Shown here: piece after piece, positions 3,771-41,445 of the stretch
How the letters are laid out: every line of letters begins with the position of its first letter
Numbering within the stretch: position 1 is the first letter of the stretch
Assembly (NCBI GenBank): GCA_013154005.1
Contig: JAADDK010000029.1
Location: 1-41,569, forward strand
Length of the DNA: 41,569 bases
Direction of reading: 5' to 3'
DNA from: Methanobacteriota archaeon
GTDB lineage: Archaea; Thermoplasmatota; Thermoplasmata; Thermoplasmatales; Aciduliprofundaceae
Translations under genes and position numbers: made by a program
Notes under the pieces: model-generated
Database searches by the model: none
What the model saw: only the letters and a program-made list of their open reading frames with translations
What the model was told of the DNA's origin: nothing

Positions 3771-4544
3771 TCACCACCCCAGCACCGTGGCCTTTATTTG
3801 CTCTCCGTACTCACCCGTGCGGTAAAGCTCCCAGTGCTCAAAATCATAATCACGCAAAACGAGCTCCACATCCTCATGCTCAACATCTCCGCTCACGAGC
3901 ACCGCGCGGTTCGTGCCAAATAACCACGGTGAGTCCAGCGCGTCTTCGATGGCAAGGCGAATGCGCTCTTTGCCGACCCCGAACCCCACGCCAACGCCAA
4001 CTCGCCCGACAGGCATGTAATTGCGCGGAATAAGCATTCGCTCAAAATCCTGAACAAGATGCCGGAGCACGATGGGGTGTATGTTCATGGCATCATTTAT
4101 CGCCAGATTGGGATAGTAGTCCGCAATCTTCGCATTGGACATGGGAATTACCGCGCTATAATTTTTAAGCATTCTCTCCAGCGCATCCCTAGACCTCTGC
4201 ACCCTTGACGGCGATTCTCCGGAAAACGGCTCTGTGAACATACCGATAACCGTTCTGCGCGATGAAAACGCGCGTCCCACCAGCTCGGCCACGCCCGTGC
4301 CCACCACCCCGCCGAGACCGGCAATCACAAGAATCACCTCTGAATCTATCGCCTCGACCCAAGGGAAAACCTCCACCAGCATTCTGGCGCTGAGATTGGG
4401 CACCATGGCTAACTTATTGGGATTTACCACTATATCCGCTCCGGCACGGTCTATGCTCACGAATTTGCTGCGGCTGAACTGAGCCACAAACCTGCCAAAA
4501 CGCACGCCTGCGCCGCCACAGCCCAGAATCACGCTGGAATACAC
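3771..4544 (-). CDS. Short divergent FtsZ/tubulin-superfamily GTPase
   Basis: 257 residues against about 350-390 for FtsZ. The N-terminus has GCGGAGVRFG (residues 8-17), like the first glycine loop of FtsZ. The tubulin signature appears as IAGLGGVVGTGVAELV (residues 74-89; FtsZ has GGGTGTG). There follows a MFTEPF strand and a long RVQRSRDALERML helix ending in VIPMSNAKI, which parallels FtsZ. A second, smaller domain follows (GVGVGFG, then AIEDALDSPWLFG), similar in plan to the FtsZ C-terminal domain. I cannot find the NxDxxD T7 loop that triggers GTP hydrolysis in the next subunit. It may therefore bind nucleotide without forming ordinary hydrolysing filaments. The start is GTG, with a TATA-like CTTTAAA centred 26 bp upstream. 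Membership in the superfamily is likely; the function is unknown. Confidence 0.72.
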   Translation of the reverse strand: MYSSVILGCGGAGVRFGRFVAQFSRSKFVSIDRAGADIVVNPNKLAMVPNLSARMLVEVFPWVEAIDSEVILVIAGLGGVVGTGVAELVGRAFSSRRTVIGMFTEPFSGESPSRVQRSRDALERMLKNYSAVIPMSNAKIADYYPNLAINDAMNIHPIVLRHLVQDFERMLIPRNYMPVGRVGVGVGFGVGKERIRLAIEDALDSPWLFGTNRAVLVSGDVEHEDVELVLRDYDFEHWELYRTGEYGEQIKATVLGW

Positions 4545-20008: not shown

Positions 20009-20872
20009 ATGAAAGATGAAACCTTTGCTCAGCTTAACATGTTTTTCATATTCATAGTGGCCAATCTTTTAGCGCTGATTCTGGTGCCGGTGTATTACTC
20101 AATGTATCATAACTCTCTCGGAGAAGAGGGAAATAACCCGTGGGTAGCAGTTTATTATATCCTCTACATAATCGGCGTTACCGCGGTGATTCTCTACATT
20201 GCAAAGCTCAAAAAAATAGGCATTCTAAAAGCCATATTCTATTTTGCAGTGGCATGGACCATGCTATTTGCTCTCATGCCCATTCTGTATTTCATAGGCA
20301 TACCATATCCGGGTCTAATCTCCCTGGCAATTTCCGTTATTCTCACAGCAATCTTAATCAAGAATCCGGAATGGTACATGATGAACATTGTGGGTATACT
20401 TATGGCGGTGGGCATATCCCTTATTCTCGGCCTGTCGCTGGGCATGGTGCCAATCATACTTCTGCTCTCCATACTGGCAATATACGATGCCATATCCGTT
20501 TACAAAACAAAGCATATGGTCTCCCTCGCAGACAACGTGATTCAGTACAATCTTCCCGCCCTGTTCGTGGTGCCTTCAAAATCGGATTTCTCGTACAAAA
20601 AGGTCAAGGGCATAAAGAAGGCAAAGGGCAAGAAAAAGGAGCGGGAAGCATACTACATGGGGTTTGGAGATGTGATGATTCCGGGCATACTCATAATAAG
20701 CGCCGCCACCAATTTTGGCCTTATGGCCGGAGTTACAACCCTGATTGGCGCGGTGCTCGCAATGATTTTGCTCACCGCGATGGTTAATTCGGGAAATCCC
20801 CAGCCGGGATTGCCGTATCTGAACGGTGGCGCTCTCGCTGGATTGCTTTTCTTCTTAGTTTTCTTTGGATAA
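20009..20872 (+). CDS. Presenilin/signal-peptide-peptidase homologue (archaeal PSH intramembrane aspartyl protease)
   Basis: 287 residues with nine likely membrane helices. The three GxGD-protease signatures are intact: Tyr159-Asp160 (AIYDAISVYK), Gly-Phe-Gly-Asp ending at Asp221 (YMGFGDVMIPG), and the PAL-type motif PGLPYLN at 266-272. The spacing and length are close to the archaeal presenilin homologue studied from Methanoculleus. A basic cytoplasmic loop (KKVKGIKKAKGKKKE) separates helices 6 and 7, where eukaryotic presenilins are auto-cleaved. It should cut transmembrane segments of other proteins; the substrates are unknown. A TATA-like TATTTTTA lies 26 bp before the ATG. Convergent overlap of 18 bases with the next gene. 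Confidence 0.93.
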   Translation: MKDETFAQLNMFFIFIVANLLALILVPVYYSMYHNSLGEEGNNPWVAVYYILYIIGVTAVILYIAKLKKIGILKAIFYFAVAWTMLFALMPILYFIGIPYPGLISLAISVILTAILIKNPEWYMMNIVGILMAVGISLILGLSLGMVPIILLLSILAIYDAISVYKTKHMVSLADNVIQYNLPALFVVPSKSDFSYKKVKGIKKAKGKKKEREAYYMGFGDVMIPGILIISAATNFGLMAGVTTLIGAVLAMILLTAMVNSGNPQPGLPYLNGGALAGLLFFLVFFG

Positions 20873-21781
20873 TTCTCTGTTTATTTCGTCCATTTTTTCG
20901 AGCACTTTCACGTAGTTGCCCTCATCACGATACACTTTGAGCTCGCGAATAAGACGCATAACGTTGCGCGACGCGGATTTGCCTTTATACGTCTCCTGCA
21001 ACAGTTTGTCTTTGACCACCTTCAAAAACGCGGTCATTGTGGACTCTATATCGTCTTTTATTGGGGTGAGTGCCTCGTCGAGTACATTCACCGCATCCCC
21101 GTATTTCTTGCTATCGGCAATGTCCTTTGCGGTGTCCACCACACCCAGCGCCTTGTCCACCGGAATCTCAAACTTCTTGGCAATATCGATTGCATGCTCC
21201 ACACCCTCCAGCTTTTCAAGATACGCTTTCATCTCTTTGGAAATCTTCGAGGCCTTCTCTTTCATCTCGTTCATGGCGGTGAGAAAATCGTCAATTTCCC
21301 ACTCTTCAAGATAGCCTTCCGCCTTGCTGTAAAGCTCTCGAACATCACTGTTCATACCCATAACAAGCTCGTACTTCTCCAGCTCTTTTTTGAAGTGATC
21401 CACCAGAGCGTTCATCACAGAAAGATACGCTCTCTGCAACGGCGCATATCCCGCCTCAAAATTCTTCATGCCCGCATGCTTTTTAGCCTGAGCTATATCT
21501 TCCTTTATGCCAGGCACGCTCACACCCTCGCTGGACGCAAGCTTGACCATGGGCTTGAGCTTACCGATGAGCGTTTCAAGAAGCATTTTATAATCCACCT
21601 TCTCGTCGAAAACCGCATAGCAATACGGGCAAAACTGCGCATCCTCAGAAACTGTATGATGGCATATAGGACATTCATAAAGTTCCTCCGAAGGTAAAAT
21701 TTCCTCTTCCCCTTCCTCTTCCACCTTTTTATCCTCGCTCAGTATCTCGCGAATTATTTCATCAATGTTCTCTTCCGCCAT
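20855..21781 (-). CDS. Zinc-ribbon protein with long helical domain
   Basis: 308 residues. An acidic N-terminus (1-36) is followed by a zinc ribbon CPICHHTVSEDAQFCPYC (Cys37, 40, 51, 54). The remaining ~250 residues are almost entirely charged amphipathic helices (VDKALGVVDTAKDIADS, YLEEWEIDDFLTAMNEM) with a repeating pattern reminiscent of TPR-like or helical-bundle scaffolds. No enzyme motif is seen. AGGTGG precedes the ATG and TTATATAATG lies further upstream. It sits between the presenilin gene and the FHA-kinase-PP2C operon but has its own promoter. A scaffold or adaptor role is only a guess. Confidence 0.72.
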   Translation of the reverse strand: MAEENIDEIIREILSEDKKVEEEGEEEILPSEELYECPICHHTVSEDAQFCPYCYAVFDEKVDYKMLLETLIGKLKPMVKLASSEGVSVPGIKEDIAQAKKHAGMKNFEAGYAPLQRAYLSVMNALVDHFKKELEKYELVMGMNSDVRELYSKAEGYLEEWEIDDFLTAMNEMKEKASKISKEMKAYLEKLEGVEHAIDIAKKFEIPVDKALGVVDTAKDIADSKKYGDAVNVLDEALTPIKDDIESTMTAFLKVVKDKLLQETYKGKSASRNVMRLIRELKVYRDEGNYVKVLEKMDEINRELSKEN

Positions 21782-22426: not shown

Positions 22427-22465
22427 TTTTTTTATACGCTTAACTCAATCCCGTGTCAAGAGGTG
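22427..22465 (+). promoter_or_regulatory. Promoter and ribosome site of the FHA-kinase-PP2C operon
   Basis: TTTTTTTATAC (22427-22437) is the likely TATA box, giving a start near 22459. AAGAGGTG (22458-22465) lies six bases before the ATG at 22472. The leader would be only about 13 bases. The promoter lies just outside the insertion-sequence relic. Confidence 0.5.
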
Positions 22466-22471
22466 TTAATT

Positions 22472-24115
22472 ATGGGGGATCTTGAAAAGGTGGTGAAAAA
22501 GTACCTTGGCGACGAAGAAGTAATTTTTGTGGGCGATGTAGCGGTGGATGGAGTTAAAATAGCAAAAGACAAGGCAAGCTCAGCTCTCTTTGTAAACGAG
22601 ATTGATGATATGAAAATAGAGCTTCTCGATGAAGGGGGAAAGATTCTAATCGTCGTGCCCAATCGTGACTGGTATGTGGCACATCCCACCGGCAAAGACT
22701 GGAGGATAGAAGGTGGGCAATATGTGCTCAGAGAATGGAATTTTGATTATGCTTCTGGAAAACTTACAGAGCGCACCATAACAGTGGGTGTGGAAGAGAA
22801 AGTACTCACATACCGAGCATACTCACCCAGTGAGCTGAGAGACAAGATGAAGTCTCTGAATCTGAAAGTTATTGCGATTTTCAGTGATGTGGATTCTGAG
22901 AAATACTCACCGGATTCTCCGGTGATATACGGATTTGCGGAAAAAGTGCCCGCGGAAGAAGCCCCTGCTCCCCAGGAAGAGGTGGCCTTAGAAGACATCA
23001 CCCCCGAAGAACTGAAGGGTGAGAACCTGGAGCCCATTGAAGAGGAAGAAACCCCACGACCAAAGCAGAGAAAAGCTGCTGCGGCAGGCACGGCAGCCGC
23101 AAAAACAGGCGCCAAGAAAAAGAAGCGTGCAAGGAGAGAAACAGAAGAAACTCCCGGCGTATACGGACTGCGCCTTAAGTGGATTGATAGCAACAAAAAA
23201 GAGCATGAAATCGAGATTGAGCATGATATAATTATTGGTCGTGGGCGTGGCGACGTGCTCACCATATCCAACAAGCATGGCAAGAAGAAGTACACCCCCA
23301 TGATGGTATTTGACACAAATAAGAAGATCTCAAGAAAGCATCTTGAGATAGTTCAGAAAGATGGAAAATGGTATATAAGGGATCTGGGCAGCACAAATGG
23401 CACCGCACTGAACGGTACGTATCTGGCCGGATGGAAAAAACCCTCTGGTGGAAACAGGTATCCCAGCGAGATGGTCAAGCTTAGAGACGGTGATATAATA
23501 ACTCTGGCCAATGCAATAACCATACAGGCCAATGTTTATCTAAAAGAGCCAGCAGAAGCACCCCTGGAGGAAGAGGAAAAAGAAGAGGAGGTTTTCGTGG
23601 ATGAAGAATTTGGCTCCGAGCCAGAACCTGAGATACCTGTGGCCAAGCAGGCCGCGGCCGGGGCAGTTACCGCATCAAAGGCTCCAGTGCAAGAAAAAGA
23701 AGAGGAGTTTCCAGATATCCCGCTGGAAGAGCCAAAGAAAGGCCCCACAGCGCCTCCGTGTCTGCTCAAATGGGTAGATGGCAATTTACGCCCGCATGAG
23801 GTGGAGATCACAGATGATGTATACATTGGAAAGAGAAAGGATAACAACGTGGTGTATCTCAAAACCATGGACGAGAAAATAACAATACCACTGGGCATAA
23901 TAGATCTGGAAGATGAAATCTCCGAGAAGCATCTGGAGATTCACAGTGAAAACGGCAAGTGGTATATACGCGACCTCGGCAGCGATCGTGGCACGATAGT
24001 CCGCGGTGATTACCTCCCCGGCTGGAGAAGAGGCAAGCCCAGCGAGTATGTAGAGCTTAAGGATGATGACGAGATACTAATTGGAAAATATCTCATCACC
24101 GTGAAATTGCAGTGA
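22472..24115 (+). CDS. Double FHA-domain protein
   Basis: 547 residues. The N-terminal ~150 residues are a domain I do not recognise (DLEKVVKKYLGDEEVIFVGD). A Lys/Ala/Pro/Glu-rich linker follows, then FHA domain 1 (about 230-350) with IGRGRGD, ISRKHLEI and DLGSTNGTALNG, an acidic linker, and FHA domain 2 (about 428-547) with IGKRKDNN, SEKHLEI and DLGSDRGT. FHA domains bind phosphothreonine. Domain 1 keeps the Arg, Ser-His and Asn residues needed; in domain 2 the Asn of the STNG motif is replaced (SDRG), so binding may be weaker or altered. The ATG at 22472 is set by GAGGTG. It is followed after six bases by a Ser/Thr kinase and then a PP2C phosphatase, so it is likely the reader or substrate of that pair. 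Confidence 0.9.
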   Translation: MGDLEKVVKKYLGDEEVIFVGDVAVDGVKIAKDKASSALFVNEIDDMKIELLDEGGKILIVVPNRDWYVAHPTGKDWRIEGGQYVLREWNFDYASGKLTERTITVGVEEKVLTYRAYSPSELRDKMKSLNLKVIAIFSDVDSEKYSPDSPVIYGFAEKVPAEEAPAPQEEVALEDITPEELKGENLEPIEEEETPRPKQRKAAAAGTAAAKTGAKKKKRARRETEETPGVYGLRLKWIDSNKKEHEIEIEHDIIIGRGRGDVLTISNKHGKKKYTPMMVFDTNKKISRKHLEIVQKDGKWYIRDLGSTNGTALNGTYLAGWKKPSGGNRYPSEMVKLRDGDIITLANAITIQANVYLKEPAEAPLEEEEKEEEVFVDEEFGSEPEPEIPVAKQAAAGAVTASKAPVQEKEEEFPDIPLEEPKKGPTAPPCLLKWVDGNLRPHEVEITDDVYIGKRKDNNVVYLKTMDEKITIPLGIIDLEDEISEKHLEIHSENGKWYIRDLGSDRGTIVRGDYLPGWRRGKPSEYVELKDDDEILIGKYLITVKLQ

Positions 24116-24121
24116 TCGAAT

Positions 24122-25528
24122 ATGCTAGAATTAACCCGAAAAATAGCCCAAACAAAGATGAGTGAGGTCTGGGAGGGAAAAATATACGGCATACGTGTGG
24201 CTGTAAAAAAGCCGGTGGAACAGGTAGATATGCTGAAAATACTTCGATTTATCAAGGAGGCAAAATACTGGAAAGAAATCAGCGACTTGGGCATAGACGG
24301 TGTTGCAAGAGTAATCGAGATTGACGAAAACGAGCCATGGTTCGCAACTGAATTTATTGAGGGAGACACGCTGGACCAGCATCTGAGAAATTCAGACATA
24401 CGCGAGATAATGTTCCGGCTTCTGGAAGTGCTGAGAATAATAGGCATTGTGCACAAGCACGGATATTATCATTTTGACCTCAAGCCAAGTAATATAATAA
24501 TCGATAACTTTGGAGATCTTGAAATAATCGACTGGGGTCTGGCAGCACGCATATTCAGAAAAATGGCAGATGAAAAGTACACGTTCATAGGCACTCCATC
24601 GTATGCGCCCCCGGAGCTCTGGGACCCTGAAGTGTACGGCAAACCCGATGAAAAGAGTGATGTGTACGAAATCGGGGCAACATTTTACCGTGTGATAACA
24701 AAGCAGGTACCTTTCACGCGAAAAAGCGAAGTTCTGGAAGGAAAGGTAAGACCATTTCCCAAGAGCGTACCAAAAGGTGTGAAACGCATTATTCTTAAAG
24801 CCATAAATCCAGACAGAGAGAAGAGATATAAAAACACAGATGAGATGTATAAGGACGTAGAAGCATGGCTTCAGCGTGAAAAGATACTCTGGCGCGGGAT
24901 TTATAAAATCCGATTTAAAAACACTCTTCAGATAACATACAATAAGGGTATAAGCTTTGTGGCAGACCCGGAAAAAAGCGACAAATCAAAGAAAATAACT
25001 ATGAGTTTTGGAAGGTTTGGAGAGCAGAATAGATTAAAAAATATGATTGCCACCATCAAAGGCGATAAAATAAAGGCGCATCGCGATATGGTGTTTGTGG
25101 ACTACGGAATAAAAAAGCGCCTTGTGGCGGGTGCTTCTGCAAAATTATATCATGGCACAAGAATTCAGTATAAAAGAGAGAATTTAGGACATCTGGATTT
25201 TGGAATAAGAAACGTAATATACGTCGATTTTCACGGTGAAGACCCGTCTGTTGCCAGAAAATACTTTGATTTTCTGGCATATTTGAAGGAGCATTCCATA
25301 CCTTACGGATTTAAAAGAGGAAAAGAGAGACTAAACATCGTGGCTCATCGCGTTCTTATAAAAGGAGAAACTCCAAAATTTGGATTGGAGGCGATAGCCC
25401 GCCTGGAAAATATAAGAATTCACCTTCGTCTTGTGGAAAAGCCCCTGCCCGACAGGGACATGCTTGTGGACTCCGCCGATGTGGAGCCTGCAACTTTATA
25501 TAGAGAAATACTGGGGTGTGAAAGATGA
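24122..25528 (+). CDS. Eukaryote-like Ser/Thr protein kinase with unusual C-terminal domain
   Basis: 468 residues. The kinase domain is at 1-258: Lys29 in VAVKK (ATP anchor), YHFDLKPSN with catalytic Asp119 (HFD instead of HRD), IIDWGLA with metal Asp137 (DWG instead of DFG), the APPE motif as YAPPELWD and SDVYEIGA of helix F. The glycine-rich loop is missing: KIAQTKMSEVWEG has none of the usual glycines except the last. The active-site residues suggest a working kinase. Lack of the HRD Arg implies it does not need activation-loop phosphorylation. Residues 260-468 form a separate unrecognised alpha/beta domain (WRGIYKIRFKN, HLDFGIRNVIYVDFHGED). No membrane helix is present. It overlaps the PP2C gene by ATGA. 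Confidence 0.9.
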   Translation: MLELTRKIAQTKMSEVWEGKIYGIRVAVKKPVEQVDMLKILRFIKEAKYWKEISDLGIDGVARVIEIDENEPWFATEFIEGDTLDQHLRNSDIREIMFRLLEVLRIIGIVHKHGYYHFDLKPSNIIIDNFGDLEIIDWGLAARIFRKMADEKYTFIGTPSYAPPELWDPEVYGKPDEKSDVYEIGATFYRVITKQVPFTRKSEVLEGKVRPFPKSVPKGVKRIILKAINPDREKRYKNTDEMYKDVEAWLQREKILWRGIYKIRFKNTLQITYNKGISFVADPEKSDKSKKITMSFGRFGEQNRLKNMIATIKGDKIKAHRDMVFVDYGIKKRLVAGASAKLYHGTRIQYKRENLGHLDFGIRNVIYVDFHGEDPSVARKYFDFLAYLKEHSIPYGFKRGKERLNIVAHRVLIKGETPKFGLEAIARLENIRIHLRLVEKPLPDRDMLVDSADVEPATLYREILGCER

Positions 25529-26259
25529 TAAAAACGTTCGGAATAAGCGACGTGGGAATGAAACGAAAAAATAACGAAGATGCCTATTTGATAGAGAGGG
25601 TTGATATTTACGAAAACGGCAAAAAGAGAATTTTTTACGTGCTGGTAGTGGCAGACGGCATGGGAGGGCATGCAGCGGGTGAGGTGGCAAGCGGAATGGT
25701 GGTTGAGCGCTTCACCGCCGCACCATTGACGTATCTTGCAGGAAAGCTTGACGGCATAAAGAAAATCATCGAGTTTGTAAACAGAAAAGTGTATGAGAAA
25801 TCAAAGAAGATGGATAAAAAGATGGGCACCACGCTGGTGGCAGCAATTCTCGAAGGACATCGTGGATTCATATTCAATGTGGGGGATAGCAGAGCGTATC
25901 TGTTTCGCAACGATAAACTAACCCGCATAACTCATGACCACTCAGTGATTCAGGAAATGCTGGACAAAAATGTCATCACGGAAGAGGAAGCAAGGACTCA
26001 TCCACAGCGTCACGTCATAACCATGGCTGTTGGCACCAAAGAAAAGGTAGAACCAGATATGTATCCGCTGAAATTTCAATCGGGAGATGTGCTTTTAATG
26101 TGCAGTGACGGAGTGCATGATATGTTAACCGATGAGGAAATAGAAAAAATAATGATTAAAAACAAAGGAAATCTTGCAAATATGGGAAAAGCAATTATTA
26201 AAGGAGCAAACGACCATGGAGGCAAGGATAATATCACTGTTGTTCTTGCCGAACTGTAA
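25525..26259 (+). CDS. PP2C-type Ser/Thr protein phosphatase
   Basis: 244 residues, the compact PPM/PP2C catalytic domain. Motifs run in order: DVGMKRKNNEDAY, VVADGMGGHAAGEVAS (metal Asp and Gly), MGTTLVAAI, NVGDSRAYLFR, THDHS, MCSDGVHDML and GKDNITVVLAEL, which include the metal-binding Asp residues. It dephosphorylates Ser/Thr and is expected to oppose the kinase encoded immediately upstream, with which it is coupled by an ATGA overlap. The arrangement resembles bacterial Stp/PrkC and type VI secretion PppA/PpkA/Fha modules, but no secretion genes are nearby. Confidence 0.95.
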   Translation: MIKTFGISDVGMKRKNNEDAYLIERVDIYENGKKRIFYVLVVADGMGGHAAGEVASGMVVERFTAAPLTYLAGKLDGIKKIIEFVNRKVYEKSKKMDKKMGTTLVAAILEGHRGFIFNVGDSRAYLFRNDKLTRITHDHSVIQEMLDKNVITEEEARTHPQRHVITMAVGTKEKVEPDMYPLKFQSGDVLLMCSDGVHDMLTDEEIEKIMIKNKGNLANMGKAIIKGANDHGGKDNITVVLAEL

Positions 26260-26292
26260 AACTTTTTTATACAATTTCTCACATGACTGCCA

Positions 26293-26874
26293 GTGATTCT
26301 CAGATGCAATGAGGACTCTGTTCGCGTTATCGCCAGGCACGCAAAAAATGAGCCGGTGGTCATACCCACAGACACGCTTTACGGGCTCGCCATGAGCGTG
26401 TACGGCCCCATCGAAAAAATTTATAAATTGAAAAATCGAGAGCTGGAAAAAAAGATTCCCATCGGCGTTGCAAGCATCGAAATGATGCGGGAGATTGCAT
26501 ACGTGGAGCCCGTATCCGAAAAACTTGTGCAGGCGTTCATGCCCGGCCCGCTTACCCTGGTGCTCAAAAGCAAAATTCCCGAAATCACCGGGCCCACCGT
26601 GGGCGTGCGCATACCGGACCACTTTGTTCCTCTGCGTTTGATGTCCCTCATCGGACCCATCACCATGACCAGCGCTAACATATCCGGGGAAGCGCCACCG
26701 GACACCATCGAGAAAACTATGAACGTGAATGTGAAATACAGGATAGACTGCGGCAAACTGCCCGGCACCGCGTCCACCGTGGTGAGCATGATTGATGGGG
26801 TTAAGTTAATAAGAGCCGGGGCAATATCCTTTTCGGCAATCCTAAAAGTTATGGGTGAGAAGAATGGACCTTAA
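26293..26874 (+). CDS. sua5: Threonylcarbamoyl-AMP synthase (Sua5/YrdC family)
   Basis: 193 residues, the YrdC domain alone, without the C-terminal Sua5 extension. It makes threonylcarbamoyl-AMP from threonine, bicarbonate and ATP for the tRNA t6A37 modification. Visible: VVIPTDTLYGLA, KIYKLKNRELEKKIP (the Lys/Arg binding residues), FMPGPLTLVLKS, GVRIPDH, TSANISGEAP and ASTVVSMIDG. The start is GTG, because the ATG at 26283 is in another frame and soon stops. TTTTTTATAC is centred about 25 bp upstream, indicating a leaderless message. It overlaps map by 11 bases. Confidence 0.94.
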   Translation: MILRCNEDSVRVIARHAKNEPVVIPTDTLYGLAMSVYGPIEKIYKLKNRELEKKIPIGVASIEMMREIAYVEPVSEKLVQAFMPGPLTLVLKSKIPEITGPTVGVRIPDHFVPLRLMSLIGPITMTSANISGEAPPDTIEKTMNVNVKYRIDCGKLPGTASTVVSMIDGVKLIRAGAISFSAILKVMGEKNGP

Positions 26875-29093: not shown

Positions 29094-30749
29094 ATGAAAC
29101 TACCACGCGGCAAACTGGAAAAGACGGTTTTTGGCGGTGCCGGTTTTGAAGATATCATAAAGAATCTTGAAAACTCAAAATTTACCGGGTTCATAAAGAT
29201 TGTGCGATACGAAAGAAGTTATGCGATAGCGCAGATTGTTTACGAAAATGGTGTGCCCGTACTGGCCTCTTATGAAAATGAGGTCTCCGAGGTGGGCGAT
29301 GATGCGCTGCCCCATGCAGTAAAGCTGGGCAGAGACGAAGATGCAGTAATCGAGATTCATTCATACTCATACAGCTCATCAACCATCGACATGAACTTTA
29401 TAATTGACAGCTATGCCGAGCACCACACCACCGTGCAGAGCCTGCGCGTGTTTCTCAGCAAACCCACGAGCTTTGAGGATATGAACATAGGCCTCGAACT
29501 TCCAGATTTGAACTTTGATTCTTTTGAAAAAGAGTCCCGAGAGGACACTAAGATACGATACGAAGAATACAGCACCGAGCTGGTGGAGAAAATTGCGCAG
29601 ATTCGGGAAAGGGAGCGTATTTTGAAAGAGCGCGAGCGTGAGCTTCTGGACCGTGAGCGCGAAGTGGCTGAAGAGCGTGCAAAAGTGCACAGAGAGCGCG
29701 AAAAGCTTGAAACTCTGCGCGCGCAAATATCCTCCAAAGCAGAATCGCTGAAAAAAATGAAAGAAGAGCTTGAATCAAAATACAGGGAGATAGAAGACGC
29801 ATACGCCAAAATAAGAGCCAAGGAGCGCAGCATATCCAGAAAAGTTATAGAACTTCGAGAAAGAGAGCAACGGGTGGAAGAGAGAGAGCGTGCAGTGGAA
29901 GAGCTTCAGAGAAAACTCGCAATGGAAAAGGAAGAGCTCAACAAATTGAGAGAGCGCCTTGAAGAGCAGAAACGCTGGATTAACACCCAGATGCGAGAGA
30001 TTAAAGATGCCGAACGCAAAAACGAAGAGCTGGCAGAGCAACTGAAGATACGGGCAGAAGAGCTGAAGAAGAAGGAAGAGAACGTGGAGGTCATGAAAAG
30101 TGAGCTTGAGCGGGAGCGCGCGGAGCTGGAAAAACTGAGAAAACAGATAGAATCGGAGAAAAGCCAGATTGAGGCAAAAATGGAAGAGTTGAAATCAAGA
30201 GAAAAGGAGATTTCTGCGAGAGAGCGCAAATCTCAGGAAGTGATTGAAACGCTCAAAAACATGGAGAAAGAGCTACGTGCGAGAGAGCGCAAACTGGAAA
30301 AGAAGGAAAATGAAATCAAAACAAAGATGCAGGAGCTAAATGAGCTTTCCCAGAGTCTCAGCAAAAAAGAAGAAGAGTTGAAAGAAAAAGAGAGAGCTCT
30401 GGAAAACATGCAAAAAGAGTACAACAGGCAGAGAGACAAACTCGAAAAAGAAGCGATTGCGCTTAAAAAGAAAGAAGTGGAAGTGGAGACGAAAATTTAC
30501 GATATGCAGACTATGGAAAAAGAGCTGGAAAAAAGAGAAAACAGGATTAAGCAGAGAGAAGAGGAACTGGCTCGAAAAGAGGAAGAGCTGGAAAAACTCA
30601 AAAAGAAGCTGTCTGTGAAGGAAGAGCTGCTAATCAAAAAGGAGCAGGAAATCGCGGCAAAAGAGAAAGAGTTAGAAGCGAAAAAGAAAGAGGCAGAAGA
30701 GAAGATAAAGAAGCTTGAAGAAATCAAAGAGAGCTTAAAGGTCCTGTGA
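29094..30749 (+). CDS. Large coiled-coil protein with N-terminal globular domain
   Basis: 551 residues. The first ~125 form a globular alpha/beta domain beginning LPRGKLEKTVFGGAGFED, with FTGFIKIVRYERSYAIAQIVYENG. This resembles archaeal DUF2226-like or DUF4388-like small domains found at the front of signalling or structural proteins. I offer that as a possibility only. From about 165 to 548 the chain is an uninterrupted heptad-rich coil of Glu, Lys, Arg and Leu (REREKLETLRAQI, ELKKKEENVEVMK), long enough for a rod of roughly 55 nm. No hinge domain, ATPase head or membrane segment is present, so it is not SMC or Rad50. TTTTTTAAAG lies ~26 bp before the ATG. Its end overlaps pus10 by 15 bases. 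Confidence 0.85.
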   Translation: MKLPRGKLEKTVFGGAGFEDIIKNLENSKFTGFIKIVRYERSYAIAQIVYENGVPVLASYENEVSEVGDDALPHAVKLGRDEDAVIEIHSYSYSSSTIDMNFIIDSYAEHHTTVQSLRVFLSKPTSFEDMNIGLELPDLNFDSFEKESREDTKIRYEEYSTELVEKIAQIRERERILKERERELLDREREVAEERAKVHREREKLETLRAQISSKAESLKKMKEELESKYREIEDAYAKIRAKERSISRKVIELREREQRVEERERAVEELQRKLAMEKEELNKLRERLEEQKRWINTQMREIKDAERKNEELAEQLKIRAEELKKKEENVEVMKSELERERAELEKLRKQIESEKSQIEAKMEELKSREKEISARERKSQEVIETLKNMEKELRARERKLEKKENEIKTKMQELNELSQSLSKKEEELKEKERALENMQKEYNRQRDKLEKEAIALKKKEVEVETKIYDMQTMEKELEKRENRIKQREEELARKEEELEKLKKKLSVKEELLIKKEQEIAAKEKELEAKKKEAEEKIKKLEEIKESLKVL

Positions 30750-40420: not shown

Positions 40421-40449
40421 TTTTGTTTTCCATAACTCATTTGATAAAT

Positions 40450-41445
40450 ATGGAACTGCGAAAAGTGCAGGTAACCGGTGGTTCAAGCTATATAATATCG
40501 TTGCCGAAAGCATGGGTAAAAAAGATGGGGATAGAGAAAAATGATTCTGTGGAGGTGCATGTGCAGAACGATGATTCTTTACTCATTATTCCAGCAGGTG
40601 GAAAAAAAGAAAATGAGAACAGGGTAAAAATATTCAGGGCTGATGAGATGGTGGACGAGAACTTTCTTATGCGATGTTTAATTGGAGCATATGTATCTGG
40701 ATACAGAGAAATAAAAATAATTTCATCTGAACCAGTAGAATCATGGGTCAGAGATACTGTCACCCAGTTTTCAAGATTGGTTATTGGCCAGGAAATTATA
40801 GAGGAGACGGCAAACACCATTGTAATGCGCGATATCCTCGACCCGGCCGAGTTACCGTTTGAGAAGATTCTGAGAAGAATGCACATCATCGTCAGAAGCA
40901 TGTACGAAGATTCCATTAAAATCTTAGATTCAAAAAATCAATTGCTGGTTAAAGAGGTAATTCGCAGAGATTCGGAAGTGGACAGGTTGCACTGGCTAAT
41001 TGCAAGAGAGCAGAGCATAATGTTCTCAGACCCTGGCATTGCCCAGAAGGTTAATCTGGGTTCTGAAAGATGCATTGATTATTTTCAAATTAGCAAAATC
41101 ATAGAGAGAATTGGAGATCACACAGCAAGAATAGCCAGAAATTCCGGAGAAATAATAAACACAATAGATAAACAGACTATCAAACTGATTAAAGAGGCTG
41201 CAAAATTTGCTCTTAATATATTTGATATGAGCATTGATGCATATCGCAAAAAAGATATCTTTATGGCAGAAAGAATACTGGAAAAAGTATCTACCCTAAA
41301 AGAACAGTGCGAATCCATAAACTCAAACGCACTTGAATACGGCACGGGCACGGCCATTGCACTGGGATACATCGCGGAGAGCATTCGCAGAACTGGCGAA
41401 TATTCCGCAGACCTGTGCGAATACGTTATAGACTATTTCATTTGA
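40450..41445 (+). CDS. Phosphate uptake regulator with AbrB/SpoVT DNA-binding and PhoU domains
   Basis: 331 residues. Residues 1-50 are a SpoVT/AbrB swapped-hairpin domain (RKVQVTGGSSYIISLPKAWVKKMG, DSVEVHVQNDDSLLIIP). The rest holds two PhoU-like helical repeats (RRDSEVDRLHWLIARE, IIERIGDHTARIARN). This archaeal protein type is thought to sense phosphate status and control pst genes. It diverges from pstS. ATG 40450 gives the family-typical MELRKVQVTGG; a TATA box is centred 34 bp upstream. In-frame TTG codons further up are less likely. Confidence 0.92.
   Translation: MELRKVQVTGGSSYIISLPKAWVKKMGIEKNDSVEVHVQNDDSLLIIPAGGKKENENRVKIFRADEMVDENFLMRCLIGAYVSGYREIKIISSEPVESWVRDTVTQFSRLVIGQEIIEETANTIVMRDILDPAELPFEKILRRMHIIVRSMYEDSIKILDSKNQLLVKEVIRRDSEVDRLHWLIAREQSIMFSDPGIAQKVNLGSERCIDYFQISKIIERIGDHTARIARNSGEIINTIDKQTIKLIKEAAKFALNIFDMSIDAYRKKDIFMAERILEKVSTLKEQCESINSNALEYGTGTAIALGYIAESIRRTGEYSADLCEYVIDYFI

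Follow-up and report, generated by a model that had tools for sequence, protein, structure and literature searches.

Signalling sets that combine a Hanks-type Ser/Thr kinase, a PP2C phosphatase and an FHA protein are known mainly from bacteria, where we take PpkA–PppA–Fha of type VI secretion and PknA/PknB–PstP–FhaA/FhaB of mycobacteria to be the relevant counterparts. Such kinase/PP2C/FHA gene sets in bacteria are described in PMC6213207. What is understood of archaeal Ser/Thr signalling in some detail comes essentially from the Sulfolobales; a 2019 paper reports that most archaeal genomes then analyzed were without FHA proteins and that only two FHA proteins had been studied, and it cites the phosphorylation of an FHA protein by an archaeal kinase in Sulfolobus tokodaii (PMC6509490). 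Here we describe a three-gene operon from a deep-sea vent archaeon of the family Aciduliprofundaceae (assembly GCA_013154005.1), which lies at positions 22472–26259 of a 41,569-nucleotide stretch, contig JAADDK010000029.1, that we call the window. The operon appears to be an unusual archaeal version of the bacterial set. Judging from sequence, we consider it fairly probable that it forms a self-contained cytosolic module that writes, reads and erases threonine phosphorylation and in which the FHA protein serves as scaffold. This reading draws on an invariant catalytic set in the kinase, an invariant metal-binding set in the phosphatase, an intact first FHA domain (FHA1) and the placement of all three genes in one operon with a promoter-like element.

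All three genes are on the + strand. The FHA protein gene (22472–24115; 547 aa) encodes a half-methyltransferase domain, linker 1, FHA1, linker 2 and a second FHA domain (FHA2), in that order, as delineated from the open reading frame (ORF), Pfam matches and a structure model. The gene of the Hanks-type Ser/Thr kinase (24122–25528; 468 aa) begins 6 nt past the FHA stop codon, and that of the Stp1/IreP-type PP2C (PPM) phosphatase (25525–26259; 244 aa) has a start that shares an ATGA with the kinase stop. These ORFs, the gap and the overlap are as the original prediction, made from the letters of the window, had proposed, and its family assignments were confirmed by Pfam and NCBIfam: two stretches of the FHA protein match PF00498 (E 5.8e-26; 91.2 bits vs. 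a cut-off of 20.7), the kinase matches Pkinase (E 1.1e-26), and the phosphatase matches PP2C_2 (E 7.1e-14) as well as the Stp1/IreP-type model NF033484 (250.3 bits vs. a cut-off of 230).

An archaeal TATA-box-like element (TTTTTATA; 22429–22436, + strand) is found ∼36 nt 5′ of the FHA ATG, and a ribosome-binding-like GAGGTG (22460–22465, + strand) precedes the same ATG by 6 nt. In all seven genomes for which the 5′ end of the FHA gene is available, TTTTATA and GAGGTG stand at that end. A second TATA-like element (TTTTTATA; 26264–26271, + strand) stands directly past the PP2C stop and ahead of the downstream neighbor, a Sua5-like gene (26293–26874), and is the likely downstream limit of the unit; AT-rich elements resembling it occur 3′ of PP2C in several genus members, less clearly in G001. 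Owing to these two boxes, one upstream and one between the PP2C stop and the Sua5-like gene, the trio is probably transcribed as a separate unit, with read-through possible, in support of the proposal that writer, eraser and reader share one self-contained unit. An Rfam search of the window returned no matches, and a sigma-70-type promoter scan was set aside as not meaningful in an archaeon.

We surveyed the archaeon's own genome and 60 others for relatives of the trio. The original prediction had staked itself on conservation in related genomes, and this was borne out: strong kinase and PP2C matches adjoin in nine genomes, namely, all eight of the archaeon's own DHVE2-group genus and G010, a family member from a different genus. 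Complete copies of the FHA gene occur in the own genome and in G001, G002, G004, G005 and G010; contig ends interrupt the gene in G003 and G006, and in G007 it is spread over two contigs. Wherever they were found, FHA protein, kinase and PP2C occurred together. The ATGA overlap between kinase and PP2C is kept in nine out of nine genomes, and the FHA–kinase gap measures 5–7 nt in all nine. This constant spacing, together with ratios of nonsynonymous to synonymous substitution rates (dN/dS) of 0.02–0.11 outside linker 1 in the pair G002/G007, indicates an arrangement that exceeds chance. Within that pair, dN/dS was 0.022 for PP2C, 0.082 for the kinase, 0.022 for the FHA1 part and 0.054 for MetAP2, and reached 0.354 in linker 1, the fastest-changing part. 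The kinase and PP2C trees both recover the clades G002+G007 and G003+G004, and the six-row FHA tree is compatible with them; by sequence, the trees are compatible with common inheritance and are poorly resolved near the window copy.

Outside the genus, one out of 10 family genomes (G010) carries the trio; the module is missing from the other nine and is therefore dispensable in close relatives. The trio stably adjoins Sua5 in 8/8 genus genomes. A functional tie to the Sua5-like and MetAP2 genes was considered and rejected, as these two stand together without the trio in all five trio-free family genomes examined (G009, G011, G012, G013 and G015). In G010 the trio has other neighbors, and Sua5 and MetAP2 adjoin elsewhere in that genome. 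Since the G010 trio sits elsewhere and Sua5/MetAP2 remain paired in trio-free genomes, the module seems to move or to be lost as a unit that is not tied to them.

Within the own assembly (1.64 Mb, 93.6% complete), the only FHA domains found were the two in this protein, and one PP2C match was found. There were three Pkinase matches: the trio kinase, a 552-aa frame on contig C113 that scores over the cut-off and is presumably a Kae1–Bud32 fusion, and a weak one on C5. With a single FHA protein and a single PP2C match found in the genome, the organism probably has no other circuit of this type. Moreover, because writer, eraser and reader make up one small operon and no other FHA protein was found in the lineage, three proteins could suffice to rebuild the entire circuit.

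Both enzymes have an invariant set of key residues. In the kinase, K29, E46, D119, K121, N124 and D137 are invariant in all nine alignment rows; among these we take the VAIK lysine, the alpha-C glutamate, the HxD aspartate, the asparagine and the DxG aspartate to be represented. Its structure model adopts the PknB fold (1o6y; Z 23.8, root-mean-square deviation [rmsd] 2.4, 222 aligned). A GxGxxG glycine-rich loop is absent from RKIAQTKMSEVWEG and from the counterparts in relatives, and the catalytic loop is non-RD, reading HFD in the window kinase and HLD in relatives, with DWG present. Given the missing glycine-rich loop and the HFD or HLD in place of HRD, phosphorylation of the activation loop may not be the on-switch of this kinase. 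In the phosphatase, D44, G45, D195, D235 and N236 are invariant in 11 out of 11 aligned copies, and the first four of these are presumably the metal-binding residues.

The kinase continues into a C-terminal region (aa 255–468, 214 aa; 24884–25525, + strand; well-modeled part ∼308–465) for which Pfam offered no family match and a sequence profile search of the PDB returned zero hits. Matches to this region were found in 13 out of 389 phylum genomes (E ≤ 0.05), of which four were strong and came, in that draw, from the own genus alone; the remaining nine (E 0.002–0.05) are taken as chance. None was found in viral contigs. A fold search with the whole kinase model was filled by kinase domains and barely probed the C-terminal part, and in viral fold libraries the kinase matches kinases and nothing further. 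The region is under purifying selection (dN/dS of 0.069 and 0.058 in two pairs). Going by sequence matches, it is found only with this trio in the genomes searched, and we infer a docking or sensing role for it.

The FHA protein was predicted to be a double-FHA reader. Two FHA domains are indeed present, yet the binding residues speak for a reader function of the first and against one of the second. FHA1 (aa 229–360; 23156–23551, + strand) has canonical GRGRGD, SRKH and STNGT motifs, and GRG(R/K)GD, SRxH and STNGT recur in all rows that cover each motif (seven alignment rows plus the FHA1 half on the second G007 contig). We take the phosphothreonine-binding residues to be the arginine of GR, the serine and histidine of SxxH and the asparagine of NG. 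Asparagine, serine and arginine are named as FHA binding residues in PMC6509490. FHA2 (aa 429–547; 23756–24112, + strand) has DRG where FHA1 has TNG, with the asparagine replaced by R, K or T in 8/8 covering rows; GK replaces GR throughout the genus, and the serine has become glutamate in G010. The FHA2 model nonetheless retains an FHA fold (best match 6hc1, Z 13.1). As predicted from these residues, FHA1 is the sole FHA domain of the protein to keep the classical phosphothreonine-binding set, and FHA2 is probably not a classical phosphothreonine binder.

Both linkers had been described as acidic, Ser/Thr/Lys-containing and possible kinase substrates. Linker 2 (aa 361–428; 23552–23755, + strand; net charge −15), whose length differs among relatives, and the first half of linker 1 (aa 161–228; 22952–23155, + strand; −13) are acidic, but the second half of linker 1 is Ala-rich and basic (+9), and Ser/Thr residues are sparse in both, with 10 among 136 residues. 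T177 (codon 23000–23002) is the only one conserved across relatives, lying in the motif LEDITPE and present as threonine in six out of seven rows; the other nine are not conserved, which leaves the substrate proposal weak. The motif and linker alignment leaves out row G003c, a frame with stops, and rows G006c and G007c do not reach linker 1. The predicted local distance difference test (pLDDT) score is mostly <50 in linker 1 and averages 70.3 over the whole FHA protein, but the predicted template modeling (pTM) score is 0.34, so the domains of the model are usable and their arrangement is not.

The N-terminal domain of the FHA protein (aa 1–160; 22472–22951, + strand) is a predicted class I S-adenosylmethionine (SAM)-methyltransferase fold truncated of its SAM-binding half. 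The best PDB match to the model (range 1–159) is 3d2l (Z 13.4, rmsd 2.7, 159 aligned), followed by 7wzg (CypM; Z 13.1, rmsd 2.5, 159 aligned); the chain ranges of both span ∼224 residues, and hence ∼65 residues are skipped in the alignment to our domain. A profile of the domain found matches in 36 out of 250 genomes (E ≤ 0.05, own genus counted), meeting other proteins at ∼51–161, mostly ∼245–280 aa long, with a best E of 4.1e-12. All four matches that were scanned are methyltransferases, with a Pfam methyltransferase domain at ∼aa 45–143. Aligned by hhalign to intact methyltransferases chosen by the domain's own profile (26 translated, two excluded by length, 24 aligned), the domain gave a probability of 98.8% (E 1.2e-16) over 110 columns of the C-terminal half only; it is because this local alignment is confined to those columns that we regard the SAM-binding half as gone. 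A SAM-binding half with glycine-rich motif I was not found; a Pfam scan of the FHA protein with E values up to 1 gave no methyltransferase match, and the strand 1 glycine motif is not conserved among its relatives. Nothing significant emerged from comparing the domain with PDB sequences, whether as a single sequence or a profile, or with plasmids; the kinship with methyltransferases rests on structure comparison of the model and on profile searches. In viral fold libraries, the FHA protein matches methyltransferase-containing capping enzymes and nothing further. The domain is under purifying selection (dN/dS of 0.113 in G002/G007), and, its SAM-binding half being missing, is most likely a pseudo-enzyme. 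It thus has the fold and C-terminal half in common with class I SAM-dependent methyltransferases such as 3d2l and CypM (7wzg) and differs from them in lacking ∼65 residues, including the SAM-binding region, and in being fused to FHA domains; it looks like a clean example of an enzyme fold put to new use in signalling. The original prediction mentions neither this domain nor the C-terminal region of the kinase, its missing glycine-rich loop or its non-RD catalytic loop.

Compared with the bacterial sets, the window trio has in common the joint encoding, a PP2C of the Stp1/PstP kind and a PknB-like kinase fold, but its kinase has no PASTA repeats, its FHA protein carries a half-methyltransferase and a degenerate second FHA domain, and its host is an archaeon. 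Among 15 further genes of the window that were scanned, none belonged to type VI secretion or the cell wall, a result limited to these 15 and to that extent in keeping with the prediction that no such targets lie nearby. The Arn system of Sulfolobales (the FHA protein ArnA, the vWA protein ArnB, the kinases ArnC and ArnD and the phosphatase PP2A) likewise unites an archaeal FHA protein with Ser/Thr kinases and a phosphatase, and the FHA2 model matches the ArnA FHA structure (5a8i, Z 11.2). In contrast to ArnA, the window FHA protein has no zinc ribbon match, and a PP2C stands in place of the PPP phosphatase. The ArnB C-terminal domain (ArnB_C, PF18677) had zero matches in the own genome (93.6% complete) and seven other genus members, whereas the positive control, Sulfolobus acidocaldarius, was matched. 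PMC10470591 reports that ArnA–ArnB binding is enhanced by phosphorylation, and phosphorylation-dependent FHA–vWA pairing in Sulfolobales is the closest bench precedent (PMC10470591; PMC6509490). A literature search, which covered few subscription journals, found no description of the present operon. The kinase/PP2C/FHA set itself is known; this example is set apart by its archaeal host lineage, by a kinase C terminus specific to that lineage, and by an FHA protein that joins a half-methyltransferase to one canonical and one degenerate FHA domain.

In the module as we picture it, the kinase, under control of its C-terminal region, would phosphorylate threonines of partner proteins and perhaps also the FHA protein, with T177 as the best candidate site. 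FHA1 would dock the phosphorylated sites, the FHA protein would build complexes in which the degenerate FHA2 and the gutted methyltransferase-fold domain serve as protein-binding surfaces, and PP2C would reset the module. Several observations weigh against this picture. Gene adjacency by itself is no proof that kinase, PP2C and FHA protein act on one another; the kinase lacks a glycine-rich loop and is non-RD, and its activation segment (139–174) is poorly modeled (pLDDT <50). The favored substrate site is alanine in G005, dN/dS between G003 and G004 is higher, at 0.239, for the C-terminal portion of the FHA protein, and the pTM of the FHA-protein model gives no domain arrangement. Finally, nine of the 10 other family genomes, some of them only 75%–87% complete, had no match to the FHA protein.

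Should the FHA protein itself be the main kinase substrate, the operon could work as a switch akin to GarA and OdhI, in which phospho-T177 folds onto FHA1, closes it and frees a partner until PP2C reopens it. The GarA/OdhI/FhaB switches of Actinobacteria, which are small single-FHA proteins, also have a flexible segment with a conserved threonine before the FHA domain, and T177, as the sole conserved linker Ser/Thr, lies N-terminal to FHA1, as does their regulatory threonine. FhaB and OdhI models do appear among the NCBIfam matches, but well short of their equivalog cut-offs (64.3 bits vs. 125 and 38 vs. 200, respectively); with the alanine of G005, the rapid change of linker 1 and ∼50 variable residues between T177 and FHA1 also set against it, we regard such a switch as rather unlikely. 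Similarly tentative is a combined version, in which a methyltransferase gutted of its SAM-binding half and joined to a duplicated FHA pair acts as a pseudo-enzyme scaffold and dedicated phospho-switch: the kinase would mark T177, FHA1 would read the mark in cis or in trans, and the exposed methyltransferase-fold domain would recruit or block the effector. If true, this would be a signalling architecture undescribed in the literature searched.

Alternatively, the N-terminal domain may keep a methyltransferase-related job, binding SAM or S-adenosylhomocysteine (SAH), or completing or inhibiting a separate methyltransferase, and so link phosphorylation to methylation. Its clear relatedness to class I methyltransferases, in fold as well as sequence, and the purifying selection on it fit this idea, but the Pfam methyltransferase region of the intact relatives has no counterpart in the 110-column profile alignment, the strand 1 glycine motif is not kept in the family, and no methyltransferase gene was found among the neighbors scanned, making it improbable. 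That the kinase is a pseudokinase, with the operon supplying a phosphatase and scaffold pair for another kinase, would account for the three kinase peculiarities listed above; given six catalytic-set residues invariant in 9/9 rows and a genome in which C113 holds the only other Pkinase match over the cut-off, we judge it very improbable. We give still less credence to a role in stress or phage defense, with the kinase as an effector restrained by PP2C and triggered via the FHA protein. Patchy occurrence in the family does resemble accessory systems, the kinase matches PADLOC single-kinase defense models (PD-T4-6, 114 bits) and PP2C has a weak match to one candidate model; however, the best of these kinase matches, to models without cut-offs here, cover little beyond a generic kinase domain, the FHA protein matches nothing in PADLOC, the module is stable beside Sua5 across the genus, and searches of viral contigs found relatives of neither the FHA protein nor the kinase C terminus. 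The write–read–erase module with the FHA protein as scaffold remains the reading we prefer.

Comparable clusters were found elsewhere in the phylum. In a draw of 292 phylum genomes, FHA (E ≤ 1e-5) was found in 21, PP2C_2 in 24 and both in 10, compared with ∼1.7 expected to have both if the two were independent (21 × 24/292). Eight of these 10 have the FHA and PP2C genes on one contig within 4 kb (G000, G002, G004, G048, G052, G055, G059 and G420; the exceptions are G311 and G428), and a kinase gene accompanies them in all eight; three of the eight come from one genus and hence are not independent. In the phylum as sampled, FHA and PP2C genes are thus rare yet mostly clustered when both are present, a pattern suggesting that such circuits were assembled repeatedly. 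As in the window, genes for FHA, kinase and PP2C adjoin in G048, G052, G055, G059 and G420 and at a second G010 locus. Unlike the window trio, the G048/G052/G055/G059 group has a kinase of 851–879 aa and a zinc-ribbon FHA protein (scanned in G048, G055 and G059). At the thresholds used, neither the half-methyltransferase domain nor the window kinase C terminus was found in these other clusters.

Variants of gene order and content were also noted. On contig 257 of G420 (L155), the trio runs in the order FHA, PP2C, kinase, and on contig 84 of G010 (L089) a second module places a 1565-aa protein with a vWA and a C-terminal FHA domain beside a PP2C, a 466-aa kinase and an Ig-like protein. Arn-like operons were seen in two genomes of this archaeon's taxonomic order, G022 (L160:5621–8348) and G242 (L161:5165–10115). 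Each encodes an FHA protein, which has a zinc ribbon in G242, along with a Metallophos phosphatase and a vWA protein whose ArnB C-terminal domain (ArnB_C) is matched at E about 1e-28; in G242 a 787-aa kinase follows.

Around the operon, a 308-aa protein with a zinc-ribbon-like start (20855–21781, − strand) is encoded divergently upstream, across a spacer of ∼680 nt, and is not among the trio neighbors in the stretches from other genus members. The position of a long, probably coiled-coil protein of 551 aa downstream (29094–30749, + strand), the N-terminal portion of which is unassigned, is conserved in genus members. Farther away, a PhoU domain is fused to a MazE-antitoxin-like N terminus (40423–41445, + strand), among neighbors that presumably form a phosphate-transport gene set, of which the ABC ATPase alone was scanned. 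The window also encodes a short divergent tubulin/FtsZ-family protein of 257 aa (3771–4544, − strand; PF00091, E 5.8e-10, over the cut-off) and a presenilin-family intramembrane protease, PSH (20009–20872, + strand; 248.9 bits vs. 125).

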